A stretch of DNA of 48,471 bases from a virus. Positions within the stretch are counted from its first letter, which is position 1, and the number at the start of each line of letters is the position of its first letter. The DNA lies in IMG/VR virus record IMGVR_UViG_3300014913_000019, positions 1 through 48,471 of that record; one strand, given 5' to 3'. The translations under genes and the position numbers were made by a program. The notes beneath the pieces were generated by a model. The model searched no databases and was not told the DNA's origin. It saw nothing but the letters and a program-made list of their open reading frames with translations. This document shows positions 7,491 through 44,782 of this stretch, piece after piece.

Positions 7491-7491
7491 T

Positions 7492-9093
7492 ATGGTCAAG
7501 CTGGTCGATCCGGATGAAGTCCTGAGCTTCTTAGCGAGGGCGTGGAGCGAAGACAAGAAGACGCTGATAAGGCGAGATAAGTGGTTCTTCGCCTCCATCG
7601 AAGATCGCATCATATTCCTTCCGAGCTACTTTCAAAAGCTCCCCATGGAAAAACACGTAAACTTGGCGAACATAAGGAGATGGAGGTTCTACAGGTTCTC
7701 GGCGTGGCACGAGGCACAGCACATACGCTTCAGCCCTTCCAAATGGGAGATCGCTCCGAAGATAGAGAAGAGGCTTGAGAAGATGGGATTTGACGTTAAG
7801 AGCTCTCTTGTAGAAGCTCTGCTGGGCGTCTTCGAAGATTATAGGATCGAGAAGCTCGGCCTCAGAGATTATAAATACGAAGAGGAAAAGAAGTTTGTGG
7901 ATGAGATCGGGAAAGTAGCCTCGGAAAAGGCGCTTGAGAAGATAGCGAGAGAATGGGACATATACAGCGCGGTCTTGACTGGTTACCTCCTCTTCGATGC
8001 TAATATACCGAACACTGTAGCTGTAAATCCAGCCTTTCTCCAAGCCCTCGATGAAGTCAAGGAGAACATGCTGAAGATAGAGACCGTCCAAGATCTGGAG
8101 GATGCAGTCGTCAAGAGCTATCCTCTTCTGCACGAATATTGGCCTGACTACATAACGTTTCCAGATGCCAGAGGCATTCGCCTCATAGGAGCCACTCTCA
8201 TCTTCGAGGGCAACGTCAAGCTAAATACTAAGATCCCGGAAAAGATAAAAGAGGAGTTCAAAGCTATGATGAAATCCATTCAGGAGTTCAACGAGGAGAT
8301 GAAGAATTTACAGAAGCTCGCATCTTCACTCGGAGGCAAAGTGCAGACCAATTTAGGCGATTGGAATGAGATCTACGATCCCGTGAGGACATACGCAGAG
8401 ATACTCAAGAACCAGCTGACGAAGTGGAAGGTGGGATGGGTCGAGCACCTGAGCCATGTTGGAGATGACATAGAGCCCGAGTCTTACCTCCTCTCTAGAT
8501 ACTACGATTCATACGACAAGCCGAAGTTCCTGATAGACGAGGAACAGCTCAGTCAGAAAGCTGACTTATTACTGCTCGTGGACATGTCGGGTTCGATAGA
8601 CCAGCAACTTGAGCTCTACAAGCAGAGCTTAGCGGTGATAACCTCTGCACTCGACTACGTTGGCACGAGGTTCTCCCTATTCACATTCTCAGGCAAGACG
8701 ATATCGGTTATCAAGGACTTATCAACTCCATTCAACATTCACACGAAGGAGAGAATAGCAGGTCTTGAGGCAACTGCAGGCACTCCTCTCGGCTATATCC
8801 TCAGAGTGTTGAACGAGAAATACCTCGATAATATCGAAAGGATAGTCGTGATAACGGATGGATTCCCTGACAACCCCCAACTCGCCATGCACTTCATAGA
8901 GGAAATAAGAGACAGGGGCAAGAGACTCGGGGTTATACTCCTTCAGAGCGAGGAGATATCTAGTTTAATCGGTTTCGAAATTTATAGAGAGTTTGAATCG
9001 CTCCTGTCGAGAACTCCAAACAGCTATATTCATGTCGGGAGCGTGAAGGAGCTCCCCTTACAGTTCTTCAGGCTCCTCATGTATGTGAGGTGA
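7492..9093 (+). CDS. VWA-domain protein, CobT/CoxE-like, partner of the MoxR ATPase
   Basis: 533 residues. The N-terminal part carries WHEAQH (H73, E74, H77) followed about 40 residues on by a VFEDYRIEKLG segment, an arrangement seen in CobT-like proteins where a zinc-peptidase-like domain precedes VWA. The C-terminal ~190 residues are a VWA domain with an intact MIDAS start, VDMSGS (D364, S366, S368), a GTPLG threonine, and a VVITDG aspartate. MoxR-VWA pairs act together as metal-dependent chaperones. The middle (about 230-300) is helical. Five genes into the regulated forward unit it is likely made with the replication proteins. Confidence 0.8.
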   Translation: MVKLVDPDEVLSFLARAWSEDKKTLIRRDKWFFASIEDRIIFLPSYFQKLPMEKHVNLANIRRWRFYRFSAWHEAQHIRFSPSKWEIAPKIEKRLEKMGFDVKSSLVEALLGVFEDYRIEKLGLRDYKYEEEKKFVDEIGKVASEKALEKIAREWDIYSAVLTGYLLFDANIPNTVAVNPAFLQALDEVKENMLKIETVQDLEDAVVKSYPLLHEYWPDYITFPDARGIRLIGATLIFEGNVKLNTKIPEKIKEEFKAMMKSIQEFNEEMKNLQKLASSLGGKVQTNLGDWNEIYDPVRTYAEILKNQLTKWKVGWVEHLSHVGDDIEPESYLLSRYYDSYDKPKFLIDEEQLSQKADLLLLVDMSGSIDQQLELYKQSLAVITSALDYVGTRFSLFTFSGKTISVIKDLSTPFNIHTKERIAGLEATAGTPLGYILRVLNEKYLDNIERIVVITDGFPDNPQLAMHFIEEIRDRGKRLGVILLQSEEISSLIGFEIYREFESLLSRTPNSYIHVGSVKELPLQFFRLLMYVR

Positions 9094-13017: not shown

Positions 13018-15007
13018 GAGGAAAGTGATATTCGCCGAGCGCTTCATCCCCTATTTTTTCATGTCCTACGGAGCCCACATCTTCAACCTGATGAACTTCA
13101 GGAGGCACATCTACTTCGAGCACGGGAGAATCCCGGATATGCGGTGCCATCTTCTGTTTGTTGCTCCACCTGGATTCTGCCTCGATCCCAAAACGTCAGT
13201 GATGTTAGCTGATGGCTCTAGAAAACCACTGTCTGAAATCGAAGTCGGAGACGAACTAATGAAAGCTTACAGCAAGAAGAGAAATGTTGTATTAGCGAAG
13301 GTCGAGAGAGTAGCGACAGAAATCTTGGAGATCCAACCTCACGATATTAAGTGTTCGCCAGAGCATCTTATCTTGACCGATAAGGGCTGGAGAAGAGCTG
13401 GCGAACTTAAAGTAGGGGATAGGATGGCAACTTGCTTCACTTACAACGATTTGAGGCTGTTGGGCTTCTGGATAGCTGAAGGTCGCTTTGAAGGTAAAGG
13501 CCCATGGACGCCTACGCTCTCAAATACGGATCAGAAGTTGCTCGCCTCTTATCAGAGAGCTCTAGATGCCTTTGGAGTAAAATTGACTCCAAGAAGTCAT
13601 AACGAATTTGCATGTGTCCAACCGAACTATAAAACTTACCATGAGAACCAATTCGCTAAATTCTTAAGGTATTTAGGCTTTCGAAAAGCAAAGGCACAGG
13701 AGAAATTCATTCCAGAGGAACTCTTCACACTTCCGTGTTTTGCTAAGCGGATGCTATGTCGAGGATTGTGGGATGGCGACGGATGGAAGCACGGATACGC
13801 AACCAGCTCAACGAGATTAGCGAATGATCTTAATCAATTACTAAGAGATCTAAACGTAGAATTTTCCTACTACCCACATGATTATAAGGCAACGAAGCAG
13901 TGCTCGGCGTTCTACATCCATAAGAATTCTTGGGACTTCCTAAAGAGAACTGCAAGATTCGAACCAAGGAAAGCTCTTGGATTCGCCGCGGTTAAATCCA
14001 TTAGAAAGATTAAAGGACCAAGATATCTCATAGACATAACAACTTCGGCTGGCCATTTTGTGGCGAATAATGTTATAGTCCACAATTCAAAGTCCTTCTT
14101 CATGAAGCAGTGCTTCTCCGAGGACTTCGGCATACTCAACACTCCGACGATCAAGACCACGTTTCAGGGCTCGTGCACTGAGGCAGGATTCGTTGGTACC
14201 ATAGAGAAGAACAAGGGAACTCCGATCAAGCGCATGGGCTTAGCAGAGGAGTACAAGGATGGCATAGTTGCGATAGAGGAGTTCACTGCAATAACCAAAG
14301 TCCTTGAGCAGAAGCATTCTCTAACATTTGAAGCCCAGCTCAACTCAGCGCTGTTCGGAGGTCTCGTCAAGAAGAGGCTAGCTTCAGGCAGTATAAGCTA
14401 CAGGACGAGGGTAACGCTCATAGCCGGTACTCAGATAGCGAAGTTCGACATAAGCGGTGGGCTGGGAAGGAGACTGAGCTACATTTATTGGGTGCCCTCT
14501 CCTTCAGACTTTAGAAAATTAGCACAAGCTGTTAGGGAAGGAGAGAACGTTCCGTTGGACAAGCGCTCCTTGGTCGAGTACAGAAACAGGCTAATGGACC
14601 TCCAGAAGTCGCTCGACAGGATAAGGCGTGTGACTTTCTCGGACGACCTCTACGACTTCCTCAGCAGTAAACCGCACTTCGAGATCCTGCTCTACAAGAA
14701 GATGGCTCTGGGGTACAACCTGTTTACGAGGACTATATCTCCGGACTTCGAGGTTACGCTCGATGCGAGGCTGAAAGTCTTACTGAAGCGTGCCATGAAG
14801 TGGAGGGAACAGCTTTTGGCAGACCCAGAGGGAGCTCAGGTCATTGAGATACTGAAGAGGCACGGAGGCCTGATGAGCAAGGAGGATCTACAGACCGAGC
14901 TCCTGCGCTACTCGATAAACTGGGAAACCTCTTCCCGGATTATAGACAAGCTTTTAAGGTTGAGGAAGATAAGGTGGACGAGAGGAGGCAAGCTAGCAGT
15001 TGTGTAA
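12980..15007 (+). CDS. MCM-like AAA+ helicase interrupted by an intein in the P-loop
   Basis: 675 residues from a CTG start at 12980, or 660 from GTG 13025. The segment LTLYDEGLKILSERK before the GTG reads as protein and has AGGGAGGTGG six bases upstream; no ATG/GTG/TTG is available there. Without the intein, LLFVAPPGF joins SKSFFMKQ to form a Walker A (PPGFSKS). Walker B-like GIVAIEEF, a threonine/glutamine sensor (LIAGTQIAKF) and the GGLGRRLSYI arginines follow, and a winged helix (residues about 590-660 from the GTG) closes the protein. This fits MCM-like viral replicative helicases, but an unusual AAA+ family is possible. Confidence 0.75.
   Translation: MTLYDEGLKILSERKVIFAERFIPYFFMSYGAHIFNLMNFRRHIYFEHGRIPDMRCHLLFVAPPGFCLDPKTSVMLADGSRKPLSEIEVGDELMKAYSKKRNVVLAKVERVATEILEIQPHDIKCSPEHLILTDKGWRRAGELKVGDRMATCFTYNDLRLLGFWIAEGRFEGKGPWTPTLSNTDQKLLASYQRALDAFGVKLTPRSHNEFACVQPNYKTYHENQFAKFLRYLGFRKAKAQEKFIPEELFTLPCFAKRMLCRGLWDGDGWKHGYATSSTRLANDLNQLLRDLNVEFSYYPHDYKATKQCSAFYIHKNSWDFLKRTARFEPRKALGFAAVKSIRKIKGPRYLIDITTSAGHFVANNVIVHNSKSFFMKQCFSEDFGILNTPTIKTTFQGSCTEAGFVGTIEKNKGTPIKRMGLAEEYKDGIVAIEEFTAITKVLEQKHSLTFEAQLNSALFGGLVKKRLASGSISYRTRVTLIAGTQIAKFDISGGLGRRLSYIYWVPSPSDFRKLAQAVREGENVPLDKRSLVEYRNRLMDLQKSLDRIRRVTFSDDLYDFLSSKPHFEILLYKKMALGYNLFTRTISPDFEVTLDARLKVLLKRAMKWREQLLADPEGAQVIEILKRHGGLMSKEDLQTELLRYSINWETSSRIIDKLLRLRKIRWTRGGKLAVV
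13178..14086 (+). mobile_element. Intein 1 with LAGLIDADG endonuclease, in the helicase P-loop
   Basis: 303 residues. Splicing block A starts with Cys (CLDPKTSVMLADG), block B holds CSPEHLILT, the endonuclease domain has two LAGLIDADG-type motifs (LLGFWIAEG and CRGLWDGDG), and the C-terminal blocks are YLIDITTSAGHFVANNVIVHN followed by Ser. Cys1, the penultimate His and final Asn, and Ser+1 are all present, so protein splicing should work. Both acidic endonuclease residues are kept, so it may be an active homing element. P-loops are favoured intein sites. Confidence 0.95.
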
Positions 15008-19630: not shown

Positions 19631-19936
19631 ATGAGAGAAGAGGAGATAGACAGGCTGATAAGGAGCAAGCCCAACGTCTTGAGCTGGAGAGACGATCTAA
19701 CGAAGGTAAAGAACGGAAAGAACACGGGCGAACCTTGTATCACAGTGTTCGTTGCGAGGAAAGTAAAGGCATCGGAGCTCAGACCTGATGAGCTGATACC
19801 TCCAGAGATAGGCGGTGTGAAGACAGACGTGGTAGAGCTTGCACCTGAAGACTTCGAGATAGGGGATACCAAAGCGGGGAGACTTCCTCCCAGCGTTCAG
19901 AAGAGGATAGCTGGAGGTGTCAGAGGTGTCGAGTAA
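19631..19936 (+). CDS. Prodomain-like protein preceding the cysteine protease
   Basis: 101 residues; ATG after AAAGGAGTGATGAAAT. The sequence EPCITVFVARKVKASELRPDELIPPEIGG resembles the N-terminal strand region found before bacterial and archaeal secreted-type peptidases, here without the expected catalytic domain in frame. It overlaps the papain-like gene by 20 bases in the +1 frame. It may be a separate prodomain or chaperone, or the first half of a fusion joined by frameshift. Confidence 0.55.
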   Translation: MREEEIDRLIRSKPNVLSWRDDLTKVKNGKNTGEPCITVFVARKVKASELRPDELIPPEIGGVKTDVVELAPEDFEIGDTKAGRLPPSVQKRIAGGVRGVE

Positions 19937-20675
19937 GGTCGATTGGAGGCTCTACTGCCCGCCTGTCCGGGATCAGGATGTATGCGGAGCATGCTCGGCA
20001 TTCGGAACCATAGGCGCTATTGAAACGCATCTTAAGATAAAGAAAAAGGATCCGGGGATACATATTGACCTGTCAGAAGCCCACCTCTTCTTCTGCGCGG
20101 ATGGAGACTGCTGGTATGGAGTGCTGATGAACAAGGTACTTGATAGAGCAAAGGAGGGCATCTGCCGTGAAGAGTGCTGGCCCTACGAGCCGGTAACGCA
20201 GAGCTGTAAGGAAGAGCCCTGCTCTGATTGGAAGCAAGGTGCATACAGGATCAAGGATTGGTACTACGTCTACGATACCGACGAGATGAAGAAGTTCTTG
20301 AAGGATGGCCCTCTGATAACCGTGATGGCCGTGTATCAGTCGTTCTTCCACTACAAGAGCGGAGTCTACCACCCACTTGAAAACGATGCATTCGTGGGCT
20401 ATCACTGCGTCACTATAGTCGGATATGACGACGAGCTCAATGCATGGCTGATAAGAAATAGCTGGGGCGAGGATTGGGGTATGGGTGGATATGCATGGAT
20501 CAAATACGGCACTTGCAGGGTCGACAGAACCATGTACCGCATAGAGGTCGATCCGGAACCGCTAGAACCGGAGAATAGGCTTGCTAAGATTCTAGACGAG
20601 ATTCACATGATGCTCCAGCGGATCATCCAGAGGATTCAGCGTTTGCTCGAATCCTTACAACAACGCTATCAATAA
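19917..20675 (+). CDS. Papain-like (C1A) cysteine protease
   Basis: 252 residues from GTG 19917. The mature papain domain is nearly full: VDWRLYCPPVRDQDVCGACSAF (oxyanion Gln20, nucleophile Cys26), YHCVTIVGYD (His163), and IRNSWGEDWG (Asn181). Many further cysteines suggest disulfides and so an oxidising location. No signal peptide is seen. The last 35 residues form an amphipathic helix. It closes the forward operon; host S-layer or lysis processing, or maturation of virion proteins, are possible roles. It overlaps the convergent reverse gene by 53 bases. Confidence 0.85.
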   Translation: MSEVSSKVDWRLYCPPVRDQDVCGACSAFGTIGAIETHLKIKKKDPGIHIDLSEAHLFFCADGDCWYGVLMNKVLDRAKEGICREECWPYEPVTQSCKEEPCSDWKQGAYRIKDWYYVYDTDEMKKFLKDGPLITVMAVYQSFFHYKSGVYHPLENDAFVGYHCVTIVGYDDELNAWLIRNSWGEDWGMGGYAWIKYGTCRVDRTMYRIEVDPEPLEPENRLAKILDEIHMMLQRIIQRIQRLLESLQQRYQ

Positions 20676-31251: not shown

Positions 31252-31432
31252 GCGGGAAATAGAAGTTCTCAAAGAGTATTACGGAAGGATACCGACGAGA
31301 GACCTCGCGAGGATATTCAACAGGAGCGTAGATGCGGTCAAACAGCAGGCAAGCAGATTGGGTCTCAGATTCCCTGAAGGTTCTGTCGACGAAGAGCTTT
31401 TGAGGAAGATTCTGGAGGTAAGAGAGGGATGA
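31217..31432 (+). CDS. SANT/Myb-like helix-turn-helix protein
   Basis: About 71 residues from TTG 31217, inside the end of the TerS gene. KRRWSEREIEVLKEYYGRIPTRDLARIFNRSVDAVKQQASRLGL is a Myb/SANT-type HTH (Trp, acidic helix, R-x-x-D recognition turn). Such small HTH proteins often sit beside terminase genes and may be a second DNA-recognition component. Confidence 0.65.
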   Translation: MRRRNLKRRWSEREIEVLKEYYGRIPTRDLARIFNRSVDAVKQQASRLGLRFPEGSVDEELLRKILEVREG

Positions 31433-32301
31433 TAAACAATAAGTGGACTCCTCCACCTGAGCCTCGGACTTTATCAGTGAAGTTCAAGCGGGTGGTGGCA
31501 TTCGTAGCCGATACGCATATTGGCTCAAGATACGCTATCTTTCCTCCCGGAGTGATGAGCAAAGAGGGAAACAACCTGAGCGCCATGAGGAACGCAGGTC
31601 AGGTGAAGCTCTACGAGTACTGGCAGAAGTGGGAGGAGATATGTGATGCATGGGGAGCGGATACGGTCATCCTCTTGGGTGATATAATACAGGGCAACAA
31701 CCCGGCTGGGAGAGGCATCGGGACGATAACTACCGACCTTGACGAGCAGAAGGACGCGGCGGTTACTCTGCTATCCAAAATCTGCAAAGATCGGATAGTG
31801 CACTGTCTATCCGGTACGCCTTATCACGAGTCGATAGACACGAGGATACACTACGACATAGCCAAAGAATTGGGAGAGACCGTAGCGAAGGAGTGGCACT
31901 TCCACGGTCTCCTAGCGAATATCAAGCTCAAGGGTACTAATCGGATACTAAATCTAGCTCACGGAGTATCAGGAGCTTCGATCTACAGAACAACACTGAT
32001 GGATCGAGAAGCGCTGTTTGAGGCGGCGGCGTATGGTCTCGGAGACTTAGACTTCCTCCCCGATGTAGTCGTGAGAGCGCACTGGCACAGGTTCATCCAC
32101 ATTCACTTACCAAACCAGCACATACTCCAGCTTCCGTGCTGGTGTGCATGGTTTCCCTACAGGGGCACTCTAAAGCTCTACGGCAAGCTCCAGCCCCACA
32201 TAGGCGGTGTGATACTCTTCATAGACGACTACGACAGAATTACAATTCACCACTATCTCTTCAAGCCTCCTAGGATAGCCGACTATCTGAAGGAGGGATG
32301 A
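31429..32301 (+). CDS. Calcineurin-like metallophosphoesterase
   Basis: 290 residues. FVADTHIGS (first metal motif), ILLGDIIQG (second), LSGTPYHE (third, normally GNHE, here GTPYHE), a helix-rich middle, and RAHWHRFIHI (fourth, GHxH-like). The replaced Asn-His dyad is unusual and may shift substrate preference. Enzymes of this fold split phosphoesters in DNA, RNA or nucleotides. Its place between the terminase subunits suggests work on DNA ends during packaging. It ends with ATG-like coupling into TerL. Confidence 0.75.
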   Translation: MINNKWTPPPEPRTLSVKFKRVVAFVADTHIGSRYAIFPPGVMSKEGNNLSAMRNAGQVKLYEYWQKWEEICDAWGADTVILLGDIIQGNNPAGRGIGTITTDLDEQKDAAVTLLSKICKDRIVHCLSGTPYHESIDTRIHYDIAKELGETVAKEWHFHGLLANIKLKGTNRILNLAHGVSGASIYRTTLMDREALFEAAAYGLGDLDFLPDVVVRAHWHRFIHIHLPNQHILQLPCWCAWFPYRGTLKLYGKLQPHIGGVILFIDDYDRITIHHYLFKPPRIADYLKEG

Positions 32302-33762: not shown

Positions 33763-35304
33763 TTGCCTTGGGTATCGGAGAAGCCTCCTGCGATAATCGA
33801 GAAGTCAACGAGATCCGTTATTCCTTCTTACCACCTGAGTCCTGAGCCTCAGCTCCGCATCCCCAAGTGGAACTACTCCACGATCTATCAGGTGGCTGAG
33901 GAATCCTGGCTCATTCAGTCAATTGTAAGAGTGATAACTCAGGAGGTTGTGAGACCTGGCTGGAGGAGAGAACCTCGCTTTAGGAGGAAGTGCGAGGAGT
34001 GCGGTGCTGAGTTTCAAGAGACGGTTGAAGAGTGCCCGATATGCGGTGGCAAGACCAGACCTCCAAGTCAGGCTCAGGCTAGGCTCTTCGACAGGCTCAT
34101 TCAGCATCCTAATCCTGACTACTCGTTCGGCGATCTGATGAGAAGCATAGTCTATCACGACGTTATAGCCGACGACTGGTACGTCTCGATACTTCCAGCT
34201 AAGTTCAAGGATAAGGACGGCAACGTGGTCATAAGACCGGCTGAGATACGGGTTGAAGATCCGAGGTACTGGGTGCCCATAGCTGATGAGTACGGGAGAT
34301 TGGGAGTCGACGAGTACTACTGCCCCGTCTGCTACACTCCGGACGAGTACTACACTGAGCCGGGCAACTGTCCCAAGTGCGGTCTTCCCCTTGAGCGAAC
34401 TGCTTATGTCCAAGTCGTTAATGGAGAGATAACTGCCAGATCCTCAGAGAACTGGATGATACACGGATCGACTGGTCGAGTGCTTCCTGAGCTCCACGGA
34501 AGACCTAAGATCATCGCCGTATGGGATCTGATACACACAATAAAGGTGATGGATGAGTATAACTTGGATGCGTACAGTGAAGGGAAGCTTGGAGGCATAC
34601 TCAACTTCCCGGGCTACTCTCAGGAGCAGATAAAAGCTCTTCAAGCTGAGATACAGGCTGATATCAAGAGGAGAGAAGTGCAGGACGTTCGAGGCTTGCT
34701 GAGGACCAAGAAGACGATAAGGACTCTGATGCTCGGGTCTGAACAGCCCATTCAGTTCATAAGGGCCATGCCTCCATTAGAAGACATGCAGTCACTCGAC
34801 TTCTACATGGTCTACATACAGGCAGTATGCGCCGTATTCGGTGTTCAGCCCTTAGCGATCTCGTTTGCCACCAAGTCGGTCAAGAGCTCTTCAGTAGCAC
34901 CCTACATTCGCCTTGAAGTGCAGAATAGGACGATAAAGGAGATACAGCGCGACAAAGAGGAGATGTTCAACAACTTCCTATTACCTCGCTTTGGCATCAC
35001 AGACTGGCTCTTCAAGTTCAACCCGATAGAGCAGAAGGACGAGCTGAGGGAGGCTCAAATAAGGCAGATAGACGCGAATACTTTGGTGACCCTGAGGAAT
35101 GCAGGGTTCGATGCCAAGTTCAACGAATACGGCAAGCTCGTGATACCCACAGAACCAACTCTGTCTCAGGAGGAGATGCCGAAGAAGAAGAGACCTAAAG
35201 GCAAGACTCCTCAGAAGCCCAAAGTCAGCGATGCATCTGAAAGAGTTATAGCTGGGACAACCGTAGAGCGCTGGCCACACGGTACACGAGGTGAGCCTCA
35301 GTAA
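33763..35304 (+). CDS. Portal protein with two inserted zinc ribbons
   Basis: 513 residues from TTG 33763 after AGGAGGAGTAG. The core fits the SPP1/HK97-type portals (SWLIQSIVRVITQEVVRPGW, SFGDLMRSIVYHDVIADDWYV, VFGVQPLAISF, then a long helix QNRTIKEIQRDKEEMFNNF). Unusually, two zinc-ribbon motifs are inserted: CEECGAEFQETVEECPICG near residue 79 and CPVCYTPDEYYTEPGNCPKCG near residue 190. They may stabilise the protein at high temperature or grip terminase. The portal is the ring through which DNA enters and leaves. Confidence 0.85.
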   Translation: MPWVSEKPPAIIEKSTRSVIPSYHLSPEPQLRIPKWNYSTIYQVAEESWLIQSIVRVITQEVVRPGWRREPRFRRKCEECGAEFQETVEECPICGGKTRPPSQAQARLFDRLIQHPNPDYSFGDLMRSIVYHDVIADDWYVSILPAKFKDKDGNVVIRPAEIRVEDPRYWVPIADEYGRLGVDEYYCPVCYTPDEYYTEPGNCPKCGLPLERTAYVQVVNGEITARSSENWMIHGSTGRVLPELHGRPKIIAVWDLIHTIKVMDEYNLDAYSEGKLGGILNFPGYSQEQIKALQAEIQADIKRREVQDVRGLLRTKKTIRTLMLGSEQPIQFIRAMPPLEDMQSLDFYMVYIQAVCAVFGVQPLAISFATKSVKSSSVAPYIRLEVQNRTIKEIQRDKEEMFNNFLLPRFGITDWLFKFNPIEQKDELREAQIRQIDANTLVTLRNAGFDAKFNEYGKLVIPTEPTLSQEEMPKKKRPKGKTPQKPKVSDASERVIAGTTVERWPHGTRGEPQ

Positions 35305-38300
35305 TGAGCCTCCTGTACAAAATACAAAACATCGAGTCCTACGATCCTAAGAAGCTTAGAACTAAAGTTTTACAAGACGACTACCGCATAGCGTTCGCTT
35401 GGTACTCGACTAAAAAGCAGGGTAAGAAGCTTAGGCATACATATAAACAAATTATTGATCTAGCTAGTAAGATAGCTGAAGAGCTTCACAGGCGAGGCAT
35501 AGAGTTCCACCCGGAGAGGTACAACGAGCACGGCAAGGAGCTCTTCCGCAAGATAGCGAGGAGGTTAGCGAGAAAGGGCATCGTTCTCAAAGCGCTGGAT
35601 GGTCTCTACCTCGTCGAACCGCATGCGAAGCTGATATGGAAAGGAATGAAGACCTTGATCGTCAAGGCGAGGAGGTATGAGAACCTCCTCTTCTACCCCA
35701 TGTACCTCTGTGGTGACAAGGTGTATGGAATAATCACTCTAACAGGCATGACTGAGGTTGACGAGAACGGCTTTCAGAACCTGAAGAAGCACCATTTGGT
35801 AACCGATAAGGAAGCTAGGGAGTGGTGGGGCGAGAGGAACAGGTACTATGTTTACAAGTTCTCGTTCAAGAGGTTCGACAAGCCGAAGGAATACGTTAGA
35901 CCTCAGGGAGCTCAGGTGAAGATAGACAACGTTCAGATCAAGAAGATGAAGAAGCCCTTCTCTCATCCGCTCGGTAAGGATCGACAAGTTTCCATATTTT
36001 TGGAGAACCTTCCTCCTCACAAGGTCTACGTAGAGCCGTTTGCTGGTGGAGCTTCGCTCTTCTGGAGAAAAGAGCCTGTCGCTAAGGAGGTGCTGAACGA
36101 TATAGACGAGCGATATGTATTCCTCCTCAGGTTCTTGAAGAATGCATCGGATGAACAGTTGGAGAAGCTCAAGAATATGGACTACATGCCGTCTGAGGAG
36201 AAGTTCGAGAGGCTCAAGAAGCTCGATCCGGATGATGACGTGGAGAGGGCGTACAAGCTCATCTATCTGATAATACACTCGTACGGAGGCAATATGGAGG
36301 ACTACGCGCACAGGAAGAAACTGAGGAAGTGCGGATACATTACCAACCCCGAAGACTACAGGGAGCGCCTTAAGAATACCATCATTACTAACAAAGACTT
36401 CGAGGAGGTGATAAGAGAATACGACTCGCCTGACACGTTCTTCTACCTCGATCCTCCATACATGGACGAGGATATCAAGGAAGATCCCGAAGCTTTCAAG
36501 AAGAGGCTGTTCGAAGCATGCAAGAGACTTAAGGGCAAATTTTTGCTGAGCTTCAGCGATGATCCCCTCATCAGGAAGCTGTTCAAAGATGCAGGCTTCG
36601 AAGTGAAGAGCTTTCTCGCCAAGAGGCCTTTAAGCAAAAACTATCCGATTAAGAGAGAGCTATTGATAGCTAACTATCCAATTAAGATACCGAAGCTCAA
36701 GAAGTCTGATGTGATGCTTAAGTTCTTGGGCACAAGAGGATATGTCGACGAGAAGTCTGAACTACACAACAAGCGGGCTTCTTTGCTGATAGACGACGGC
36801 AAGACGAAGCTTTTAATAGACTGGGGAGACGTGAACGGAGAGCTTCCTGACTGCGATGCTATAATCATCACACATGCACACCCCGACCACCTCTTCGGCC
36901 TGAAGAACAAAGAGATAGACGTCCCAGTGTTCATCACGGATGCGACGACACACTCCGAGTACTACAGAGAAGGAGTCTACAAGTTCAGCAAGACGGTGTT
37001 CAAGCGCAGGAGTGCGTTTAGAGTTGGGGATATCGAAATAATAAGCGTTCCTGTACTGCACTCGACCAAAGCTCCCAATATCGCTCTATTCATCAATGTG
37101 GGTGGATACAGGATCTGCTACGCATCCGATGTCCTGAGCATAAAGAAGGAGCACAGGGATAAGTTCCTGAGAGGATGCGACCTGTACATCGGCGATGGAT
37201 CCACGCTTAGAGAAGACGGTCTTGTGAGGTGGGACGAGAAGAGGGATGAAGCGATAGGACACGCTGGAATACCTAGGCAGGTAAAATGGTGTGAAGAGGC
37301 GGGTGTGAAGCGGATAATCTTCACGCACTTCGGATCTGAGCCTATAAAGCTCGGCAGAAAGCTTGAGGAGAAGCTCGCTGAACTAGGTGCTGAGATGGCG
37401 TATGATGGATGGGTCACAAACGTATTAGTCAGCAAAGCTGTTAACCTAGAAGAGATAGACGATGAATATGTCGAGAAGCTCAGTGATAAGAAGCTCAGAG
37501 AGCTGTATGAGAAGCTCCATAAGATATATGAGCAAGAAGGGAGAGTCACTGAACCTCTTTTGAACGCCGAGATATTCGTTGAGAACGAGATGAAGAAGCG
37601 AGGCATGGAGAGAAACATAAACGACAGGCTGAGTCAGGAGGCGAGGTTCTGGGTTCAGGAGTATCCGCCTTGGGAGAAGGAAAAGAAGATCACGCTCCAG
37701 GAAGTGATAGACTCATTCCCGGATGTCATCAAGCTACCGGCTGACGTACCGGCCATCTACATAGTTGGAGGTCTTGCTAATCGAGGATGGGTCACTCACC
37801 ACGACATAGACATTCGAGTAGCTTCAGACAAATACTTACCAAAAGTTAAACGAGCTCTAATACACGCATGCACGAGGAACGACATACGGGAGAAGCTTCA
37901 GTTCATATTCGACTCAAGAGGTGGGATAGGCCTCTCGATACCGCTCTACATACCGGTTGAGGATGGTCTGAAGAAGGACGAAGAGCTGAGGTTGGGCAAG
38001 CCCTCTCAGCCTCAGAAGCCAGCTACGGGATGGCAGAAGAACGAGTTTTGGAAGATAGACGAGGCGTGGACAAAGTGGGGAGCTCCTAGAATTGATAGAG
38101 GCATCATGGTTCAGCCCAAGTACGACGGCATGAGCTTTCAGATACATGTGAAAGACGGAAAGCCAATTGGGTTCTTCACCGAAGACCAGCTTAGGAACAG
38201 AATTGAGGCGTTTAAGAAGTCTTCGGCTGAGCTCCCGAAGCTTTTGAAAGCTAAGGATGCGATCTTAGTAGCCGAAATGGTCGAGTACTCCGATGAAGTT

Positions 38301-40262
38301 GAGTATCCTGAGAACGACAAGCTCTGGACGAAGTACAAGCAGATTCCGAGAGAGGATCTGGTTAAATGGATCGCGGCTAGGCCTTCTTCTCTTGATGACA
38401 AACGTGTGATATTCCATGTGCATGACCTGCTCTATCTTGACGGCGAGAAATGGTATGATAAACCGGCGATCGAGCGGTATGAGAAGCTGAAGGAGATACT
38501 GAAAGAGGGCAAGCACTTCCACGTCGTTGAGTCCAAGACAGCTCACAACATGAGGGAGTTCTTCGAGTATGCAAATTGGGCGAGGTACTTCCCGAACTCT
38601 GAAGGTGCTGTCTTCAAGACCACTGATTCGATCTACAAGATCAGATATGATAGAGCTTCGAGGAATAAAGACTGGTGCTTAACCGGTGGAAGCTATGTCC
38701 TAACAGAAAACGGATTTGAGCGAGTAGCTTATCTTAAACCGGGCGTTCTGGTCTTCGCAAAGGATGGCAAACTTCACAGAGTGCTTAGAATTGCAAGGCG
38801 GAAAATCGAACCTAACGAACAGCTATTCGAAGTCAAGGATTACCATGGATTAACCGTCAGATTGACTTCAGAACACGAAGTACTAACAAGGGAATGCGGT
38901 TGGCAAGAATGCTCAGCCTCGTTCGGATTAACTCCGGTATTTCCGCGATTGAAGATTCCTAAGGAAAAACCGCCTGAAGAGCTTTGTTTATCATGGCACG
39001 GTTACGAAAAAATCATAAAATGTACTAAAGAGTTTTGGAAGCTTGTTGGTTTCTGGGTTGCCGAAGGTTCGCTAGGGAATAACCGAAACAAGAATTACAG
39101 ACGAGGTGAATTCGAATTCTCCCAGAAAGACGATCAAATATTCTCTGAGCTCGCTGATTTGGCAGACAGAATACTGAAGACAAAGGGCAAAAGGTATTGC
39201 TATGATGGAGTAAACCGGTACATCGTCTGGGACAAGCCCTTCTGTGATTGGTTGAGTAAGAACTTCTTAGATAAGAACGATGATAAGACCCTTCCTTGGT
39301 TTATCGCATACCTCGATGATGAGAAGTTCGAGGCGTTCTGGGAAGGTCTTTGGCTCGGAGATCGAAAAGCTCCAGATCGAGATGCGATCTCGACCTCCGA
39401 TAACTCTCTCGCTGGGAGATTATTCGCAATTCTGAATGCTCGCGGTGAGGAAGTCGGTATTCACAAACAGAGAACCAATAGAAAGGACAATTTCACAATC
39501 ACAAGATTGAAACGACCCACTCATAAAATATCGGTCAAAAGGCTTTCAACAGACCATCAGGATTTGGTTTACGATATTGAAGTGGAGAATGAAGATTCGT
39601 TCTTAACTGGAAATCTCGTGTTGCATAACAGTAAGCTCAAGAACCTCAAGGAGCTCGACGTGATGGTCCTAAAGCCTCACCTCGTCGAAGGTACCAAAGA
39701 CGTGTTCACGTGGCAGGGAGTAGTAGGTCCGATTCCTGAGAAAGACCTGGACAAGTACAGAGAGCGAGACATTATGGAATTCAAGGGCAAGAAGTACCTG
39801 AGGATTGGAACGTGCTACAATGTGAAGGGCAAGAAGCCTGAGGGTAGCATCCTGACCGTGATGCCAATAAGAATAGAGAAGAACACAACTGAAGACGGCA
39901 AAATATACTACACTTGGATGTTCCCGAAGGCTGGGCTGTGGAGACCAGAGAAGAAGGAGCCTGATCCAATCGATGTGGTCGAGAAGCTCTCGAAGCTTGG
40001 GACGAGACCGTTCGAGAAAGCTAAGAGCGAGAAGGTGATAAAGATAGAGCTTCCCCTGTGCCCTGAGAAGTACGCGTTCAACGAGGAAATTTGTCCTCTC
40101 ATTAACAGAGTTAAGATACTCGTGGATGGAGTCTGGAAGTCTGACAAGCCGAAGGTGAAGCTTAAGGTTCAGGAGCTGAAGTATCCGATAGACTGCAAGC
40201 TGGCTAACTATTATAGATGCAGGAGAGTGAAGCCGTACTATTACGGGTGGCGAGAGGAATGA
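35304..40262 (+). CDS. Giant fusion: PUA/ASCH-like, Dam methylase, MBL hydrolase, nucleotidyltransferase, DNA ligase (with intein)
   Basis: 1652 residues (1334 after intein removal); its ATG overlaps the portal stop. In order: a helical and ASCH/PUA-like start (1-220, VEPHAKLIWKGMKTLIV); a D12-class adenine methylase (FAGGAS near 245-250, DPPY 383-386); a metallo-beta-lactamase fold hydrolase (HAHPDH 524-529); a pol-beta-type nucleotidyltransferase (GG at 822, D834, D836); an ATP-dependent ligase adenylation domain (KYDG with K939, FHVHDLLYLDG, EGAVFK from E1100, motif V after the intein KLKNLKELD), an OB fold, and a Cys-containing tail. All visible active sites are intact. It sits between portal and protease genes, so DNA-end joining linked to packaging or injection is a reasonable inference. 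Confidence 0.85.
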   Translation: MSLLYKIQNIESYDPKKLRTKVLQDDYRIAFAWYSTKKQGKKLRHTYKQIIDLASKIAEELHRRGIEFHPERYNEHGKELFRKIARRLARKGIVLKALDGLYLVEPHAKLIWKGMKTLIVKARRYENLLFYPMYLCGDKVYGIITLTGMTEVDENGFQNLKKHHLVTDKEAREWWGERNRYYVYKFSFKRFDKPKEYVRPQGAQVKIDNVQIKKMKKPFSHPLGKDRQVSIFLENLPPHKVYVEPFAGGASLFWRKEPVAKEVLNDIDERYVFLLRFLKNASDEQLEKLKNMDYMPSEEKFERLKKLDPDDDVERAYKLIYLIIHSYGGNMEDYAHRKKLRKCGYITNPEDYRERLKNTIITNKDFEEVIREYDSPDTFFYLDPPYMDEDIKEDPEAFKKRLFEACKRLKGKFLLSFSDDPLIRKLFKDAGFEVKSFLAKRPLSKNYPIKRELLIANYPIKIPKLKKSDVMLKFLGTRGYVDEKSELHNKRASLLIDDGKTKLLIDWGDVNGELPDCDAIIITHAHPDHLFGLKNKEIDVPVFITDATTHSEYYREGVYKFSKTVFKRRSAFRVGDIEIISVPVLHSTKAPNIALFINVGGYRICYASDVLSIKKEHRDKFLRGCDLYIGDGSTLREDGLVRWDEKRDEAIGHAGIPRQVKWCEEAGVKRIIFTHFGSEPIKLGRKLEEKLAELGAEMAYDGWVTNVLVSKAVNLEEIDDEYVEKLSDKKLRELYEKLHKIYEQEGRVTEPLLNAEIFVENEMKKRGMERNINDRLSQEARFWVQEYPPWEKEKKITLQEVIDSFPDVIKLPADVPAIYIVGGLANRGWVTHHDIDIRVASDKYLPKVKRALIHACTRNDIREKLQFIFDSRGGIGLSIPLYIPVEDGLKKDEELRLGKPSQPQKPATGWQKNEFWKIDEAWTKWGAPRIDRGIMVQPKYDGMSFQIHVKDGKPIGFFTEDQLRNRIEAFKKSSAELPKLLKAKDAILVAEMVEYSDEVEYPENDKLWTKYKQIPREDLVKWIAARPSSLDDKRVIFHVHDLLYLDGEKWYDKPAIERYEKLKEILKEGKHFHVVESKTAHNMREFFEYANWARYFPNSEGAVFKTTDSIYKIRYDRASRNKDWCLTGGSYVLTENGFERVAYLKPGVLVFAKDGKLHRVLRIARRKIEPNEQLFEVKDYHGLTVRLTSEHEVLTRECGWQECSASFGLTPVFPRLKIPKEKPPEELCLSWHGYEKIIKCTKEFWKLVGFWVAEGSLGNNRNKNYRRGEFEFSQKDDQIFSELADLADRILKTKGKRYCYDGVNRYIVWDKPFCDWLSKNFLDKNDDKTLPWFIAYLDDEKFEAFWEGLWLGDRKAPDRDAISTSDNSLAGRLFAILNARGEEVGIHKQRTNRKDNFTITRLKRPTHKISVKRLSTDHQDLVYDIEVENEDSFLTGNLVLHNSKLKNLKELDVMVLKPHLVEGTKDVFTWQGVVGPIPEKDLDKYRERDIMEFKGKKYLRIGTCYNVKGKKPEGSILTVMPIRIEKNTTEDGKIYYTWMFPKAGLWRPEKKEPDPIDVVEKLSKLGTRPFEKAKSEKVIKIELPLCPEKYAFNEEICPLINRVKILVDGVWKSDKPKVKLKVQELKYPIDCKLANYYRCRRVKPYYYGWREE
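38676..39629 (+). mobile_element. Intein 2 with LAGLIDADG endonuclease, in ligase motif V
   Basis: 318 residues. Block A CLTGGSYVLTENG (Cys1), block B LTSEHEVLT, LAGLIDADG-type motifs LVGFWVAEG and WEGLWLGDR, and C-terminal DLVYDIEVENEDSFLTGNLVLHN followed by Ser. Removing it joins NKDW to SKLKNLKEL, restoring the conserved ligase motif V lysines. Splicing residues are complete. It differs strongly in sequence from intein 1, so the two entered separately. Confidence 0.95.
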
Positions 40263-42250
40263 AAATAACTCAGGACATGTTGTTGAAGGAAGAGCCCAAG
40301 ATCCCGTGGTCTAAGCCCATCTACTTAGAGCTCCCTCCGCCTGAGAAGAACGGCAAGGTGAGATATGTCCTACAGCACCACTGGAGAGGTCGTAGCGTGC
40401 ACTGGGACTTCAGGTGCGAAGTCAATAACCATTTGATAGGTTGGACGATACTCGACAACCCGAAGATAGACCACGCTCCCACGCTTGAAGAGCTTCCATC
40501 TCTGATCGACAAGCTAGACTGGACGTTCAGACCTGTACCCGGAATGAACAACAAGAAGTGCAGGTGTGAGACTAAGGCGAGACAGCCTAAAGTCTGGCTA
40601 TTCTGGAAAGAGGAGTGGGGGCCATGTTCTGCAATTCCCTTTGACCAGCTCTGGAAATTAGACGTAGGTACTTCCTACGAGGTTAGGGTAAAGCCGGATG
40701 AGCTGATAGTGAAGATGGACACCGGCGAAGTGTTTGAAGCCAAGCCGGGAACTGTGGGAGCGACTAGGTATGAACCGGGAAGATTCCTCATCGTCGATAA
40801 GGGCTACGTGACGTTCGGGGCTCAGAAGCCTTGGTATCACGAGTACTTCCTAGACTCGATAGCGAAGAGGAAGCACAGGCTGACGTTCGAGAAGATAAGG
40901 GTGAATATGAGGGCTGTGGTTCAGGCGGTGATAGACCCCGAGACGAAGAAGCCCAAGCCGGGCAAGTTCGAGCTCATGTGGGAGGGATGGGTGCCCAAGG
41001 ATCAGGATCCCTATGCGGTCGAGAGAGGAAGGAAGAAGGGATGGATACCTCCCAAGGGCTTCATCCCGATCCCGAAGTGGTGGATAGAAGAGCACAGGAA
41101 GGAGTTCGAGGAGTGGCTTGAGTGGGTTCAGGAGAAGTGGGCTGAGACGAAGGAGCTGATGAAGGCCGAGGGAGAGTACACGCTCCAGCAGATGAGCTGG
41201 AAGGGGCAGAAGGTAATCCGCGATATTCCGGTGATGCACTGGTTCTTAAATATCAAACAGGGTGATAAAATCAGAACCTGGGAGCTGTGGTACAATCCGC
41301 TTTACGTGCATCCGACTGCGGCAGGATACGTCGGTCAAGCTCCGAAGAAGTGGTTCGAGTTCGAGGGCAAGCTCAAACCGGGAGAGCTGTTCAATCCGCG
41401 CAAGAGGCTGAACGCCGACGTGAAGATACTCGACAAAGGCAGAGTGTTCGTTGACGCCAAGAGGGTGAACGGACGCGAGGTGCTCGTGCTGTCGTTCTCA
41501 GGCAAGCTTGGCAAGTTCTGGAAGCTTGAGCAGGAAGAACGAGGATCTGACCTCTACTCGTTCAGTAAGTCGAGTATAAAGAAGGCGTTCGGTAGCTTCG
41601 TGCTTCAGAAGCACTCGTGGAAGGGAGGATCGCACTACGACATTAGAATTGACGAGGGAGGAGACTACCTCCTTGAGTGGTCGCTCAACAAAGACCCACG
41701 GAAGTTCAAGACGGATGAGTCTGAGAAAGTGATACTTAAGAAGTGCTACGACAAGAGCTGGCTTACATTTGAAGGGAAGAGGAAGGTTGGAGGCGTGGTG
41801 ACCGACGTTAAGATTCTCGACAGCGGTAAGGTCGACTTCATAGAGAAGTCTCAGCTGTTCAGGAGCTTCGTCTTCCACGGTGACTCTCTAAAGGGCTACT
41901 ACGTGCTGAAGTCGGACGGCAAAGGGTGGAGGTTCATCAGGTCAGCTCTTCCGGGCATGAAGAAACAGCTGAAGTACGAGGAGAAGTCTGGATACATCAG
42001 AGTGCACCTGCACGACATAAGAGACTTCACGAGGTGCGAGAGCGAGGAGAAGGCCAAGCGCTACAAGATACCGAAGCTACCAGAAGGGGTCGAGGCCAAT
42101 ATCTGTCTCTTTCCCAGACCCGGAACGATACACGGCGCTAAGATCCAATCGCTGAAGTTCGACAAGAGGCTCTGGAGCATAGAAAGGATTAAAAGAGAGT
42201 TCGACTTTAAACCATTCGTTGAGTGGGAAGGGGTGCAGGTGAGAGGATGA
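40259..42250 (+). CDS. LigD 3'-phosphoesterase-like protein with duplicated module
   Basis: 663 residues from ATG 40259, overlapping the ligase stop. RYVLQHHWRGRSVHWDFRCE (H48, D50) matches the Q-x-H-x(n)-H-x-D-x-R pattern of the LigD phosphoesterase domain, and GSFVLQKHSWKGGSHYDIRID (H459) repeats it; a third degenerate copy (SFVFHGDSLKGYYVLKSD) lies near 545. LigD PE enzymes clean 3'-phosphates and ribonucleotides before ligation. Paired with the ligase next door, this gives a two-gene DNA-end repair set. About residues 200-370 are unassigned; stretches such as KPWYHEYF may be a further domain. Confidence 0.75.
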   Translation: MKITQDMLLKEEPKIPWSKPIYLELPPPEKNGKVRYVLQHHWRGRSVHWDFRCEVNNHLIGWTILDNPKIDHAPTLEELPSLIDKLDWTFRPVPGMNNKKCRCETKARQPKVWLFWKEEWGPCSAIPFDQLWKLDVGTSYEVRVKPDELIVKMDTGEVFEAKPGTVGATRYEPGRFLIVDKGYVTFGAQKPWYHEYFLDSIAKRKHRLTFEKIRVNMRAVVQAVIDPETKKPKPGKFELMWEGWVPKDQDPYAVERGRKKGWIPPKGFIPIPKWWIEEHRKEFEEWLEWVQEKWAETKELMKAEGEYTLQQMSWKGQKVIRDIPVMHWFLNIKQGDKIRTWELWYNPLYVHPTAAGYVGQAPKKWFEFEGKLKPGELFNPRKRLNADVKILDKGRVFVDAKRVNGREVLVLSFSGKLGKFWKLEQEERGSDLYSFSKSSIKKAFGSFVLQKHSWKGGSHYDIRIDEGGDYLLEWSLNKDPRKFKTDESEKVILKKCYDKSWLTFEGKRKVGGVVTDVKILDSGKVDFIEKSQLFRSFVFHGDSLKGYYVLKSDGKGWRFIRSALPGMKKQLKYEEKSGYIRVHLHDIRDFTRCESEEKAKRYKIPKLPEGVEANICLFPRPGTIHGAKIQSLKFDKRLWSIERIKREFDFKPFVEWEGVQVRG

Positions 42251-43494
42251 GCACAGGCGAGTATGTCCTCGTACCTTTAGATCAAGCTTCTGATCATGCA
42301 TTTGAAGAAGCTGAGTACTACTCGGCTCCATGCTTCATCCTCAAGTCTGAGAAGAAGAGGTTCATCATAGCTGGCTACGCATCGGTGAACATAATAGACA
42401 AGGACAACGAGAGGATATCTCCCAAGGCGCTAAAAGAAGCATTCGAGAAAATGATGAAGAGAAAGTCAAGGCGTAACCTGATGCTTCATCATCAGAACAT
42501 ACAGATCGGAGAGATACTGCCGAAGTACGTGGACAAGAACGGAAAGGTGTGGAAGAGCGGAGTTGACGACAAGGGCCTGTTCATAGTAGCTGAGGTCTTC
42601 AACGATACGGTCACTGGAAGGGAAGTCATCGAGAAGATGAAGAAAGGACAGCTGATGAGCTTCAGCATAGGAGGGAGGGTTCTGCCGGGTGGTCGGGAGG
42701 TCAGGTGCGACGAGAACAAGTGCTGGACCGAGATAGTTAAGCTTGAGCTTTATGAAGTTACTTCATGCGACGAAGGGAAGAATCCCAAGGCGAAGGCGTT
42801 TATAGTTGAAAAGGAGGATAACGCTGAGGATGACTGGGACGATAGCTTGGGTGAAACGTTTATTAATACGCGTATATTAAAAAATCGGCGATCCAAAATG
42901 GAGGAAGAAGGAGAAATTATCGAGAAGGCCGAAGTGGCGACCCTCATCGAGGAAGTCAAGAAGCTGACCGGCAAGCTCAACGAAGTCATAGTGCGCGCCG
43001 AGGAAGAGAAGAAGCTGGAGAAGGAGATCGAAGATTTCGCCGAGATATTAGACGTCGTGGACAAGGAGTCCTACAGGAGCTTTATGAAGAACTGCCTCAA
43101 GTCCGGAAAGAGCATGAAGGAATGCGCCCTCGAGTGGAAGAAGAAGAGCAAGGCTCAGCCTCCAGAGGACGAGGCTGTCGAGGAAGAGACCGAGAAGGCA
43201 AAGAAGAAGAAGAAAAAGAAGAAGGACGAGGAAGAGGAGTACTACTACTACAAGTATCCAGAGAAGGAGGACTTCGAGAGCGAGGAGGAATACAAGAAGG
43301 CTGTCGAGGAGTTCAACAAGCTCAAGGCTCAAATAATCAAGGAGCTGGGCTTGGAGAACGCCGAGGAAGTGATAAAGAAGAGCGTACAGCCGAAGGAGGA
43401 GAGCAGGTTCGGAGGGATTAACCTCGATGAGATCAGGAAGAAAGCCGATGAGGCTATCACTTTCAGGGACTTATTGTATATGGTAGGTGAGTGA
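42247..43494 (+). CDS. Prohead protease (XkdF-like) fused to a scaffold-like tail
   Basis: 415 residues from ATG 42247. The N-terminal ~190 show the HK97/XkdF-type protease pattern: FIIAGYASVNIIDKDNERISP, then NLMLHHQNIQIGEIL (His), and GQLMSFSIGGRVL (Ser). The C-terminal ~200 residues are a very charged coiled coil with Lys and Glu runs (KAKKKKKKKKDEEEEYYYY), typical of scaffolding that is removed during head maturation. Fusion of the two is common in this virus type. Confidence 0.85.
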   Translation: MSTGEYVLVPLDQASDHAFEEAEYYSAPCFILKSEKKRFIIAGYASVNIIDKDNERISPKALKEAFEKMMKRKSRRNLMLHHQNIQIGEILPKYVDKNGKVWKSGVDDKGLFIVAEVFNDTVTGREVIEKMKKGQLMSFSIGGRVLPGGREVRCDENKCWTEIVKLELYEVTSCDEGKNPKAKAFIVEKEDNAEDDWDDSLGETFINTRILKNRRSKMEEEGEIIEKAEVATLIEEVKKLTGKLNEVIVRAEEEKKLEKEIEDFAEILDVVDKESYRSFMKNCLKSGKSMKECALEWKKKSKAQPPEDEAVEEETEKAKKKKKKKKDEEEEYYYYKYPEKEDFESEEEYKKAVEEFNKLKAQIIKELGLENAEEVIKKSVQPKEESRFGGINLDEIRKKADEAITFRDLLYMVGE

Positions 43495-43498
43495 GAAG

Positions 43499-44782
43499 AT
43501 GCTACCCAGACTTCCATACGGAAAAGAGTACTTAGACTGGTGGTACAACAAGGGCGGAATGGTAGCCACGCTTCTAGGGCTTGACAGCGTAGGAGGGGCC
43601 TCTGCGGTATCCGACGCGATAAAGAAGGCTATAGGACCTTGGGATGCGCCCAACTCTCCGTACGCCGAGTACTTCGAGCCAAAGTTCTCGGCTACGGTGC
43701 AGATGTGGGTCGAGCGCAGTACAGAGGTCTGGAAGCTCCTGAGGAAGACCACGTTCCTAGCAGAGGGAGACTCGCTGAAGTACGTCGAGTCTGACCTCTC
43801 ATCGATCCAGGGAGTGACCGGATCTTCGACCCCATTCGCATCCGGAACCAATGAGTCTGCTCCAACAGTAGCGACACTTGAGGAGATAGAGCCAGCTTAC
43901 CTCGTGGATGCGTGGGAGACGACCCTCCCATCAAGGACGAGGAGCACATGGCAGTCTGAGCCCAAATTAGATCCCAAGTGGATCAAGCAGTACCACGCCG
44001 AGCTGTTCCCGCACCAGATAGACGCGCTCCTGTGCAGGACAATCGACACTCCGAACAACGACGGCTCTTCTGTGTTCTTCATAGAGTCGATAGACAGGAT
44101 ATGCTCTGCGAATGCTGAAGCCTCGACGACATACGTATCAGACGCGGCTGATCCGGACATACACTGGGGCAAGAGCACCGCCTTAATCGACAGATCTGCC
44201 GATACGGACGACACGTTCGGATGCGGTGCGGGAGATGGGCTTTCACTCCCAGATACCGGTGCGGCTAGAACCCTCAAGCTCGACTACATAGACGACGTGG
44301 TTGCCGCGATCGTTCCATACAGCAAGAACAAGAGATTCATCGGCATAACAGGGCCCAAGACCCTCAACGAGATGCAGAAGCTCATCGATCCAAAGCAGAG
44401 GTACCTGAACGTCCCCGTCGACGTGCAGGTGACGATAAACGGTGTGTCAACGAGGAAGGGAGCGAAGGCAGGCTTCACTGTAGGAGCCTACGTCGCGTCG
44501 GGAATAGAGATCCCATTCTTCACTTCGAGGCACATAGCGAACGAAACTTCAGCGAACAGGTCTGCGACGATAACCGATGCCGATATAGGCAACATCTACA
44601 TCATAGACCTCGATACGATCGAGATAAGGACAGCTGTACCGGTAACCTATCTGGAGACACCTCCACACGCGATGCTGACCGGAGACATGCTGAAGACAAG
44701 ACACATGCTCATGTACGGCGCCCAGCTGATATGCACCAATTTCAGGGCAAACGGTGCGGTCAAGTACCTCAAGAGCACTTAA
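43499..44782 (+). CDS. Major capsid protein, HK97-fold
   Basis: 427 residues from ATG 43499 after GTAGGTGAG (GTG 43487 is also open). An N-terminal helical arm is followed by an E-loop region (AEGDSLKYVESDLSSIQG) and A-domain strands (FIGITGPKTLNEMQKLIDP, GIEIPFFTSRH). Length and position after the protease-scaffold gene fit HK97-type capsids. Two Gly/Asp/Ser-rich loops near 240-260 could be surface insertions. No acidic N-terminal pro-arm is obvious. Confidence 0.8.
   Translation: MLPRLPYGKEYLDWWYNKGGMVATLLGLDSVGGASAVSDAIKKAIGPWDAPNSPYAEYFEPKFSATVQMWVERSTEVWKLLRKTTFLAEGDSLKYVESDLSSIQGVTGSSTPFASGTNESAPTVATLEEIEPAYLVDAWETTLPSRTRSTWQSEPKLDPKWIKQYHAELFPHQIDALLCRTIDTPNNDGSSVFFIESIDRICSANAEASTTYVSDAADPDIHWGKSTALIDRSADTDDTFGCGAGDGLSLPDTGAARTLKLDYIDDVVAAIVPYSKNKRFIGITGPKTLNEMQKLIDPKQRYLNVPVDVQVTINGVSTRKGAKAGFTVGAYVASGIEIPFFTSRHIANETSANRSATITDADIGNIYIIDLDTIEIRTAVPVTYLETPPHAMLTGDMLKTRHMLMYGAQLICTNFRANGAVKYLKST

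Follow-up and report, generated by a model that had tools for sequence, protein, structure and literature searches.

Two adjacent open reading frames (ORFs) in the head-gene cluster of a virus, ORFs A and B of IMG/VR record IMGVR_UViG_3300014913_000019 (positions 1 to 48,471, a stretch of 48,471 nucleotides hereafter called the window), belong to a viral family whose constant core is a nucleotidyltransferase (NTase), a DNA ligase and a LigD-like phosphoesterase (PE) tied to the head protease. A DNA methyltransferase (MTase), a metallo-β-lactamase-fold (MBL) hydrolase and an ASCH domain are optional additions to this core. On our best reading, A and B represent a DNA-end-processing polyvalent protein system, a new class within a known concept, whose association with the virion is predicted from its genetic setting. 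We propose that in archaeal tailed viruses the pair would form a DNA-end healing-and-sealing system that is produced together with the head, freed by the maturation protease and active on ends or breaks of the genome, and we give this proposal slightly less than an even chance.

Scans of viral contigs yielded 15 relatives of the ORF A core, 60 of ORF B and 23 of a protease-fused form. We picked 65 non-redundant viral loci by similarity to the module, and among these PE was present in 65 by construction, ligase in 55, NTase in 54, ASCH in 30, MTase in 19 and MBL in 16. As a description of the family and not of an independent sample, ligase and PE occurred together in 55 of the 65 loci, and all three core domains in 51. 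An S78/XkdF protease was encoded on the same strand in 56 of the 65 loci and was adjacent or fused in 47, and the portal gene lay upstream on the same strand in all 13 loci where it was detected. About a dozen relatives carried ligase, PE and protease on one chain; the C-terminus of these NTase/ligase/PE polyproteins matched XkdF, Peptidase_S78_2 (PF14550), in Pfam with E-values from 3e-28 to 8e-33. The domain order was shuffled among relatives (MBL-ASCH-NTase-ligase; NTase-MTase-ligase-PE-XkdF; NTase-PE-ligase-XkdF; NTase-ligase-PE-MTase-PE). In two relatives, L059 (4123-6444) and L070 (2997-5309), an ASCH domain was fused to the portal protein itself, which gives further support for the link to the head.

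Among 50,697 phage records, the ligase-PE combination turned up in that of the virus ANMV-1 alone; the other matches in this set were to the methylase, the ligase or XkdF singly. A search of plasmids gave XkdF matches only. Short matches to ORF B were present in about 17% of the sampled genomes of the same phylum, mostly in ORFs of 100-230 aa, and long matches were few; the short matches are consistent with stand-alone cellular PEs.

The order of the genes around the pair is as follows.

33763..35304, + strand: portal gene, upstream neighbour of ORF A (Pfam Phage_portal 1.6e-11; PHROG portal)
35304..40262, + strand: ORF A, multi-domain polyprotein of 1652 aa (1334 aa when spliced), with orthologues in L003, L005, L006 and L012
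40259..42250, + strand: ORF B, three LigD-phosphoesterase-like domains; the likely start at 40259 gives 663 aa, and a longer ORF begins at 40217
42247..43494, + strand: S78 prohead protease (Pfam Peptidase_S78 1.4e-13)
43487..44782, + strand: major capsid protein (PHROG major head protein 6e-8)

These matches bear out the placement of the pair between portal and prohead protease given in an earlier note on this DNA. The stop codon of the portal gene overlaps the start codon of ORF A as TAATG (35302-35306), and ATGA overlaps join the end of A to the start of B (40259-40262) and the end of B to the start of the protease gene (42247-42250). The overlaps along portal, A, B and protease suggest one translationally coupled late operon, and the genes from portal to capsid protein would thus form a single overlapping unit.

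The domains of ORF A were assigned as follows.

35559..35918, + strand: ASCH (PUA-like) domain, aa 86-205 (profile against PDB; Pfam in 3 of 19 family members)
35943..36620, + strand: D12/Dam-type N6-adenine methyltransferase, aa 214-439 (Pfam, PHROG, FAGG and DPPY motifs)
36738..37385, + strand: metallo-β-lactamase-fold hydrolase without β-CASP, aa 479-694 (Pfam, 1zkp)
37449..38048, + strand: pol-β-superfamily nucleotidyltransferase-like domain, aa 716-915 (DxD plus D, weak profile matches, AlphaFold2 model)
38088..38675, + strand: adenylation domain of an ATP-dependent DNA ligase, aa 929-1124 (Pfam, Foldseek, motifs)
38676..39629, + strand: intein within ligase motif V, aa 1125-1442 (Pfam Intein_splicing and Hint)
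39630..40013, + strand: ligase motif V and oligonucleotide-binding (OB)-fold domain, aa 1443-1570 (DWxKLK motif, Foldseek)
40041..40259, + strand: C-terminal four-Cys domain (Cys conservation)

The earlier note had described ORF A as a five-enzyme fusion. Pfam and profiles of relatives supported all of its segments, the NTase more weakly; the number of enzymes would be an overcount if ASCH only binds. Removal of the intein, which runs from C1 at aa 1125 to a last Asn at aa 1442, from the 1652 aa leaves exactly the 1334 residues that had been stated for the spliced protein.

The ligase carries the features of ATP-dependent DNA ligases (motif I KxDG, motifs III, IV and V, and an OB domain), and its adenylation domain matched DNA_ligase_A_M at 6e-17 (aa 932-1124). 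Its KxDG motif was unchanged in 30 of 30 sequences, and the E and EG motifs in 31 of 31 each. We used a model of the NTase-ligase-tail portion of the intein-free orthologue L005 as the Foldseek query, which aligned with archaeal DNA ligases at 3e-21 over both the catalytic and the OB domain; archaeal and eukaryotic DNA ligases were the top structural matches. An RNA ligase identity was rejected on these matches and on Pfam RNA_ligase scores far below those of DNA_ligase.

The methylase matched MethyltransfD12 in Pfam (7e-20, aa 224-432), a PHROG family (1e-46) and the structure of DpnM (2dpm), and its FxGG (FAGG) and DPPY motifs are those of the D12 class of N6-adenine MTases. For the MBL domain, Lactamase_B_2 was matched at 6e-18 (aa 513-676) and 1zkp at 5e-13, and the HxHxDH, H, D and H residues were unchanged in 11 of 11 sequences. 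Its nearest relatives are YycJ, PhnP and RNase Z; these, together with a size of about 215 aa, ruled out an Artemis/β-CASP nuclease. ASCH and NTase were undetected by direct Pfam search of ORF A. A profile of relatives linked the ASCH segment to the TTHA0113 structures 2dp9 and 1wk2 (5e-6).

The direct evidence for the NTase was weaker than that for the other domains of A. Profiles of relatives gave weak matches to terminal deoxynucleotidyltransferase in PDB (E 0.3) and to Pfam Polbeta (E 0.016-0.028). In hhalign comparisons with archaeal NTases, the motifs were aligned correctly on GG...DxD with a score of 26.5, compared with 9.9-15.2 for three control profiles. The DxD and third Asp were unchanged in 22 of 22 sequences, the first motif varied (GG, GR or GS-like), and the AlphaFold2 model (mean predicted local distance difference test score 84.8) had a β-α-β-α-β topology. 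Only ligases appeared among the 50 Foldseek matches listed for the A model, with no separate match to an NTase fold, and a BFVD search likewise gave DNA ligases only and no match spanning the whole NTase-ligase model. These results point weakly to a pol-β-type NTase. The four Cys of the tail were each unchanged in the 18 of 18 sequences having the domain, which is probably zinc-binding.

In ORF B, the following domains were distinguished (residues numbered from 40217).

40322..40903, + strand: PE1, with H55, H62, D64 and R66 (HHDR in 23 of 23)
40904..41575, + strand: PE2, degenerate and PE-like, with a conserved WxPPKG region (profile against 3p4h 5e-4)
41582..41986, + strand: PE3, with H466, H473, D475 and R477 (3p4h 1.9e-8; HHDR in 18 of 18)

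The two LigD phosphoesterase-like modules previously reported thus became three, PE2 lacking catalytic residues and yet matching PE structures. LigD_N was matched in two stretches of ORF B (Pfam, 4.6e-8), and the top Foldseek matches were archaeal LigD phosphoesterases, with 3p4h (TMt 0.86, E 2.4e-6) showing the PE β-barrel fold. The His-His-Asp metal ligands and Arg, retained in every sequence with PE1 or PE3, correspond to the LigD-PE metal triad His42/His48/Asp50 and to Arg52.

NTase, ligase and PE are repeatedly fused or adjacent, so that the three probably share a substrate; DNA is suggested as this substrate by the OB domain of the ligase and by the DNA methylase, and the linkage to portal and maturation protease argues for encapsidation. 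Given that relatives have these enzymes on one chain with the capsid-maturation protease, the repair kit may travel inside the particle. We infer packaging, proteolytic release, injection and every enzyme activity from the genetic arrangement and residue conservation. In the sequence of events that we propose, A and B would be synthesised late, as products of one operon with portal, protease and capsid protein. Once inside the procapsid, the enzymes would be cut free by the maturation protease, whose gene is adjacent here and fused to theirs in relatives. After delivery with the DNA they would work on the viral genome, with 3΄ ends trimmed or cleaned by the PE domains, nucleotides added or filled in by the NTase, and nicks sealed or ends joined by the ligase. 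In the window's lineage, the methylase would mark adenines against restriction, and ASCH and MBL would handle some nucleic-acid substrate. The most likely time of action would be just after entry of the linear genome into a new cell, where the system could circularise the genome, mend strand breaks acquired inside the particle and help it to evade restriction. The earlier note had suggested a machine that modifies, repairs and seals DNA ends; domain content, unchanged residues, gene overlaps and protease fusions speak for it, whereas its action at packaging or after injection is still conjecture.

Little is known of how archaeal tailed viruses repair, close and protect their linear genomes when these enter a cell. 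With a conserved ligase-NTase-phosphoesterase set linked to the head protease, the idea of a repair step carried by the virion becomes open to direct test. Such a step would bring archaeal viruses and DNA sealing into the scope of polyvalent proteins and give the phosphoesterase superfamily a further, divergent clade, and the family may yield thermostable joining enzymes.

Iyer et al. 2017 (PMC5512222) described the polyvalent proteins of phages and conjugative elements as multi-enzyme proteins embedded in the virion. The same paper reports them to be scarce in archaea, nearly all examples of >1000 aa being bacterial, and proposes that an assemblin-like peptidase at the C-terminus of some of them does the processing. 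Like them, A and B are large multi-enzyme chains near the virion genes of terminase-portal viruses, and Pol-β NTases are among the enzymes of polyvalent proteins. Several disparate enzymes on one chain and a position among virion genes characterise these proteins; A has at least four enzymatic domains, and A/B lies between portal and S78 protease. A subset of polyvalent proteins has a C-terminal peptidase; in the window the protease is the next gene, and about a dozen relatives have XkdF at the C-terminus. The window's family differs in its theme of DNA-end processing, in viruses that are at least partly archaeal and in a protease that is often a separate adjacent gene; our search of the main text of PMC5512222 did not find DNA ligase or LigD phosphoesterase. 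A and B fit the concept where it can be compared, and packaging in the virion and injection would follow by analogy.

The grouping of a ligase, a PE and a nucleotide-adding enzyme also recalls archaeo-prokaryotic non-homologous end joining (NHEJ), represented by LigD and by the Lig/Pol/PE of Methanocella. However, the viral NTase is pol-β-like by motif and topology and not a primase-polymerase of the archaeo-eukaryotic primase (AEP) type, and the viral set lies in a head operon with three PE-like domains and a changed active site. Canonical NHEJ was rejected: Ku (PF02735) was found in 0 of 19 virus records, some of which may be fragments, and an AEP-type polymerase domain was absent from A and B, the rest of the genome not having been searched for AEP. 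A more specific version of our proposal, in which a pre-made, Ku-independent end-joining machine with a changed PE active site, carried in the virion and released by the protease, would close the viral genome into a circle or mend it upon entry, seems to us possible but somewhat doubtful.

According to the earlier note, no virus system with the whole set in one polypeptide was known to have been described. The full order ASCH-MTase-MBL-NTase-ligase was encountered only in the window's close relatives, and in the literature searched we found no description of the ligase-NTase-PE set in archaeal viruses. However, the polyvalent proteins are a precedent in kind, and the NTase-ligase-PE core is widespread and is already present in ANMV-1, a virus of uncultured archaea. 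Its protein AJP62006.1 (KP703175), an NTase-ligase-OB-PE fusion of 866 aa without ASCH, MTase or MBL, is annotated merely as 'ATP-dependent DNA ligase', its function being unrecognised there. XkdF-type proteases are annotated on a single product with a DNA methyltransferase in the head clusters of Rhizobium RHph, Pseudomonas PAK_P1-like and Lactococcus ul36-type phages, but those records had no ligase, PE or NTase match.

Several results weigh against the proposed virion-borne system. The co-occurrence counts come from loci chosen for their similarity to the module, sequence gives only weak evidence of homology for the NTase, and the 19 records had no match to Ku. The ANMV-1 module is near the terminase and far from the prohead protease, and in some relatives from large viruses the protease is 2-8 kb distant from the module. 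In addition, six PE residues, including His84 and Tyr88, are reported to be strictly conserved in cellular PEs (PMC4797286). The equivalents of these two are replaced in PE1 and PE3, an unchanged Trp occupying the Tyr88 column, which places the viral domains outside the canonical LigD PEs. The chemistry of PE1 and PE3 cannot therefore be assumed to be that of LigD, and these domains may catalyse a different reaction or none.

The main rival explanation is repair at packaging, in which the pair would mend nicks, gaps and unhealed concatemer ends at the portal and terminase of the producing cell and keep the motor from stalling, so that entry into the particle would be unnecessary. An operon and neighbourhood common to portal and terminase agree with this, as does a metallophosphoesterase resembling DNA repair exonucleases (PHROG; window 31429-32301) directly ahead of TerL, relatives of which lie near the module in L008, L069 and L074. 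However, the repeated fusion to a protease working inside the procapsid is better explained by encapsidation, and we regard this rival as rather unlikely.

We consider it improbable that the delivered enzymes mend cleaved tRNA or other RNA or degrade nucleotide signals as a counter-defence. ASCH is a fold of RNA-binding type, the MBL domain is nearest to YycJ, RNase Z and PhnP, and NTases include tRNA and signalling enzymes; moreover, LigD PE removes 3΄ ribonucleotides (PMC8656161). Against this, the ligase has an OB fold and resembles archaeal and eukaryotic DNA ligases in structure, Pfam RNA_ligase scores far lower than DNA_ligase, and the accompanying methylase is of the DNA adenine type. 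That A and B are ordinary replication or repair enzymes merely located in a late cluster is quite improbable: DNA ligases are often virus-encoded and the ANMV-1 gene is away from its protease, but the protease linkage in 47 of the 65 loci, the protease fusions and the overlaps with portal and protease genes argue otherwise. That the head reuses these folds as structural or scaffolding elements whose activity has been lost, as the degenerate PE2 and the replaced His84/Tyr88 might suggest, is very improbable given that catalytic residues of ligase, NTase and MBL are unchanged in distant relatives. An assembly artefact joining separate genes is refuted by the architecture of A, intact in L003, L005 and L012 and retained in the surviving part of truncated L006; the search for the same order in other viral contigs, proposed as a check, thus showed that the ORF is not mis-assembled.

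Sequence conservation speaks for the healing-and-sealing proposal. The NTase and ligase catalytic residues and the PE metal-site residues were unchanged across relatives of 20-40% identity. The closest relative, L012, a contig of 48,991 b in a metagenome-assembled genome of Archaeoglobales, has 92% DNA identity to the window. Its two ends align with neighbouring parts of the window that overlap each other, as would be seen with a circular or circularly permuted genome. Ratios of nonsynonymous to synonymous substitution rates (ω) were computed against L012 because they were saturated against L005, and were 0.023 for ASCH, 0.033 for MTase, 0.029 for MBL, 0.046 for NTase, 0.052 for ligase and 0 for both OB domain and tail. 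By this measure, the catalytic domains of A are all under strong purifying selection. The viruses carrying the module appear to infect heat-loving archaea. A host link through clustered regularly interspaced short palindromic repeat (CRISPR) spacers was rejected, since three weak matches of 35-43 nt in Archaeoglobi-class genomes lay in loci without repeats and were not spacers.

The ligase intein is at the same site in L012 and is missing from L003 and L005, where DWAKLKN is uninterrupted. Between the window and L012, synonymous divergence (dS) was 0.056 for the intein and 0.96 for the adjoining ligase domain, which suggests that the intein was recently transferred or homed. In ORF B of L012 (7036-10077) and L006 (3143-6133), PE1 is interrupted by an insertion with the junction NNHLIGW/T, and insertions inside PE1 were also present in L007 (5947-9081) and L008 (18818-21865), the former containing intein and LAGLIDADG domains (Pfam). 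Together with the ligase intein, these insertions indicate that inteins hit both partner enzymes. In six relatives (L053, L054, L058, L059, L066 and L070), the ligase is split into an MTase-NTase-catalytic ORF followed by an OB-PE ORF, near the window's intein site; this split is possibly natural. A second intein-containing ORF of the window (13025-15007) has LAGLIDADG and intein-splicing domains.

Elsewhere in the window, the portal protein contains two CxxC zinc-ribbon-like stretches, at about aa 75-95 and 183-213. A MoxR-like AAA ATPase followed by a VWA-domain protein (6214-9093) resembles chaperone pairs reported in archaeal viruses, and a papain-family cysteine peptidase (19917-20675, 3e-38) is unusual for an archaeal virus.

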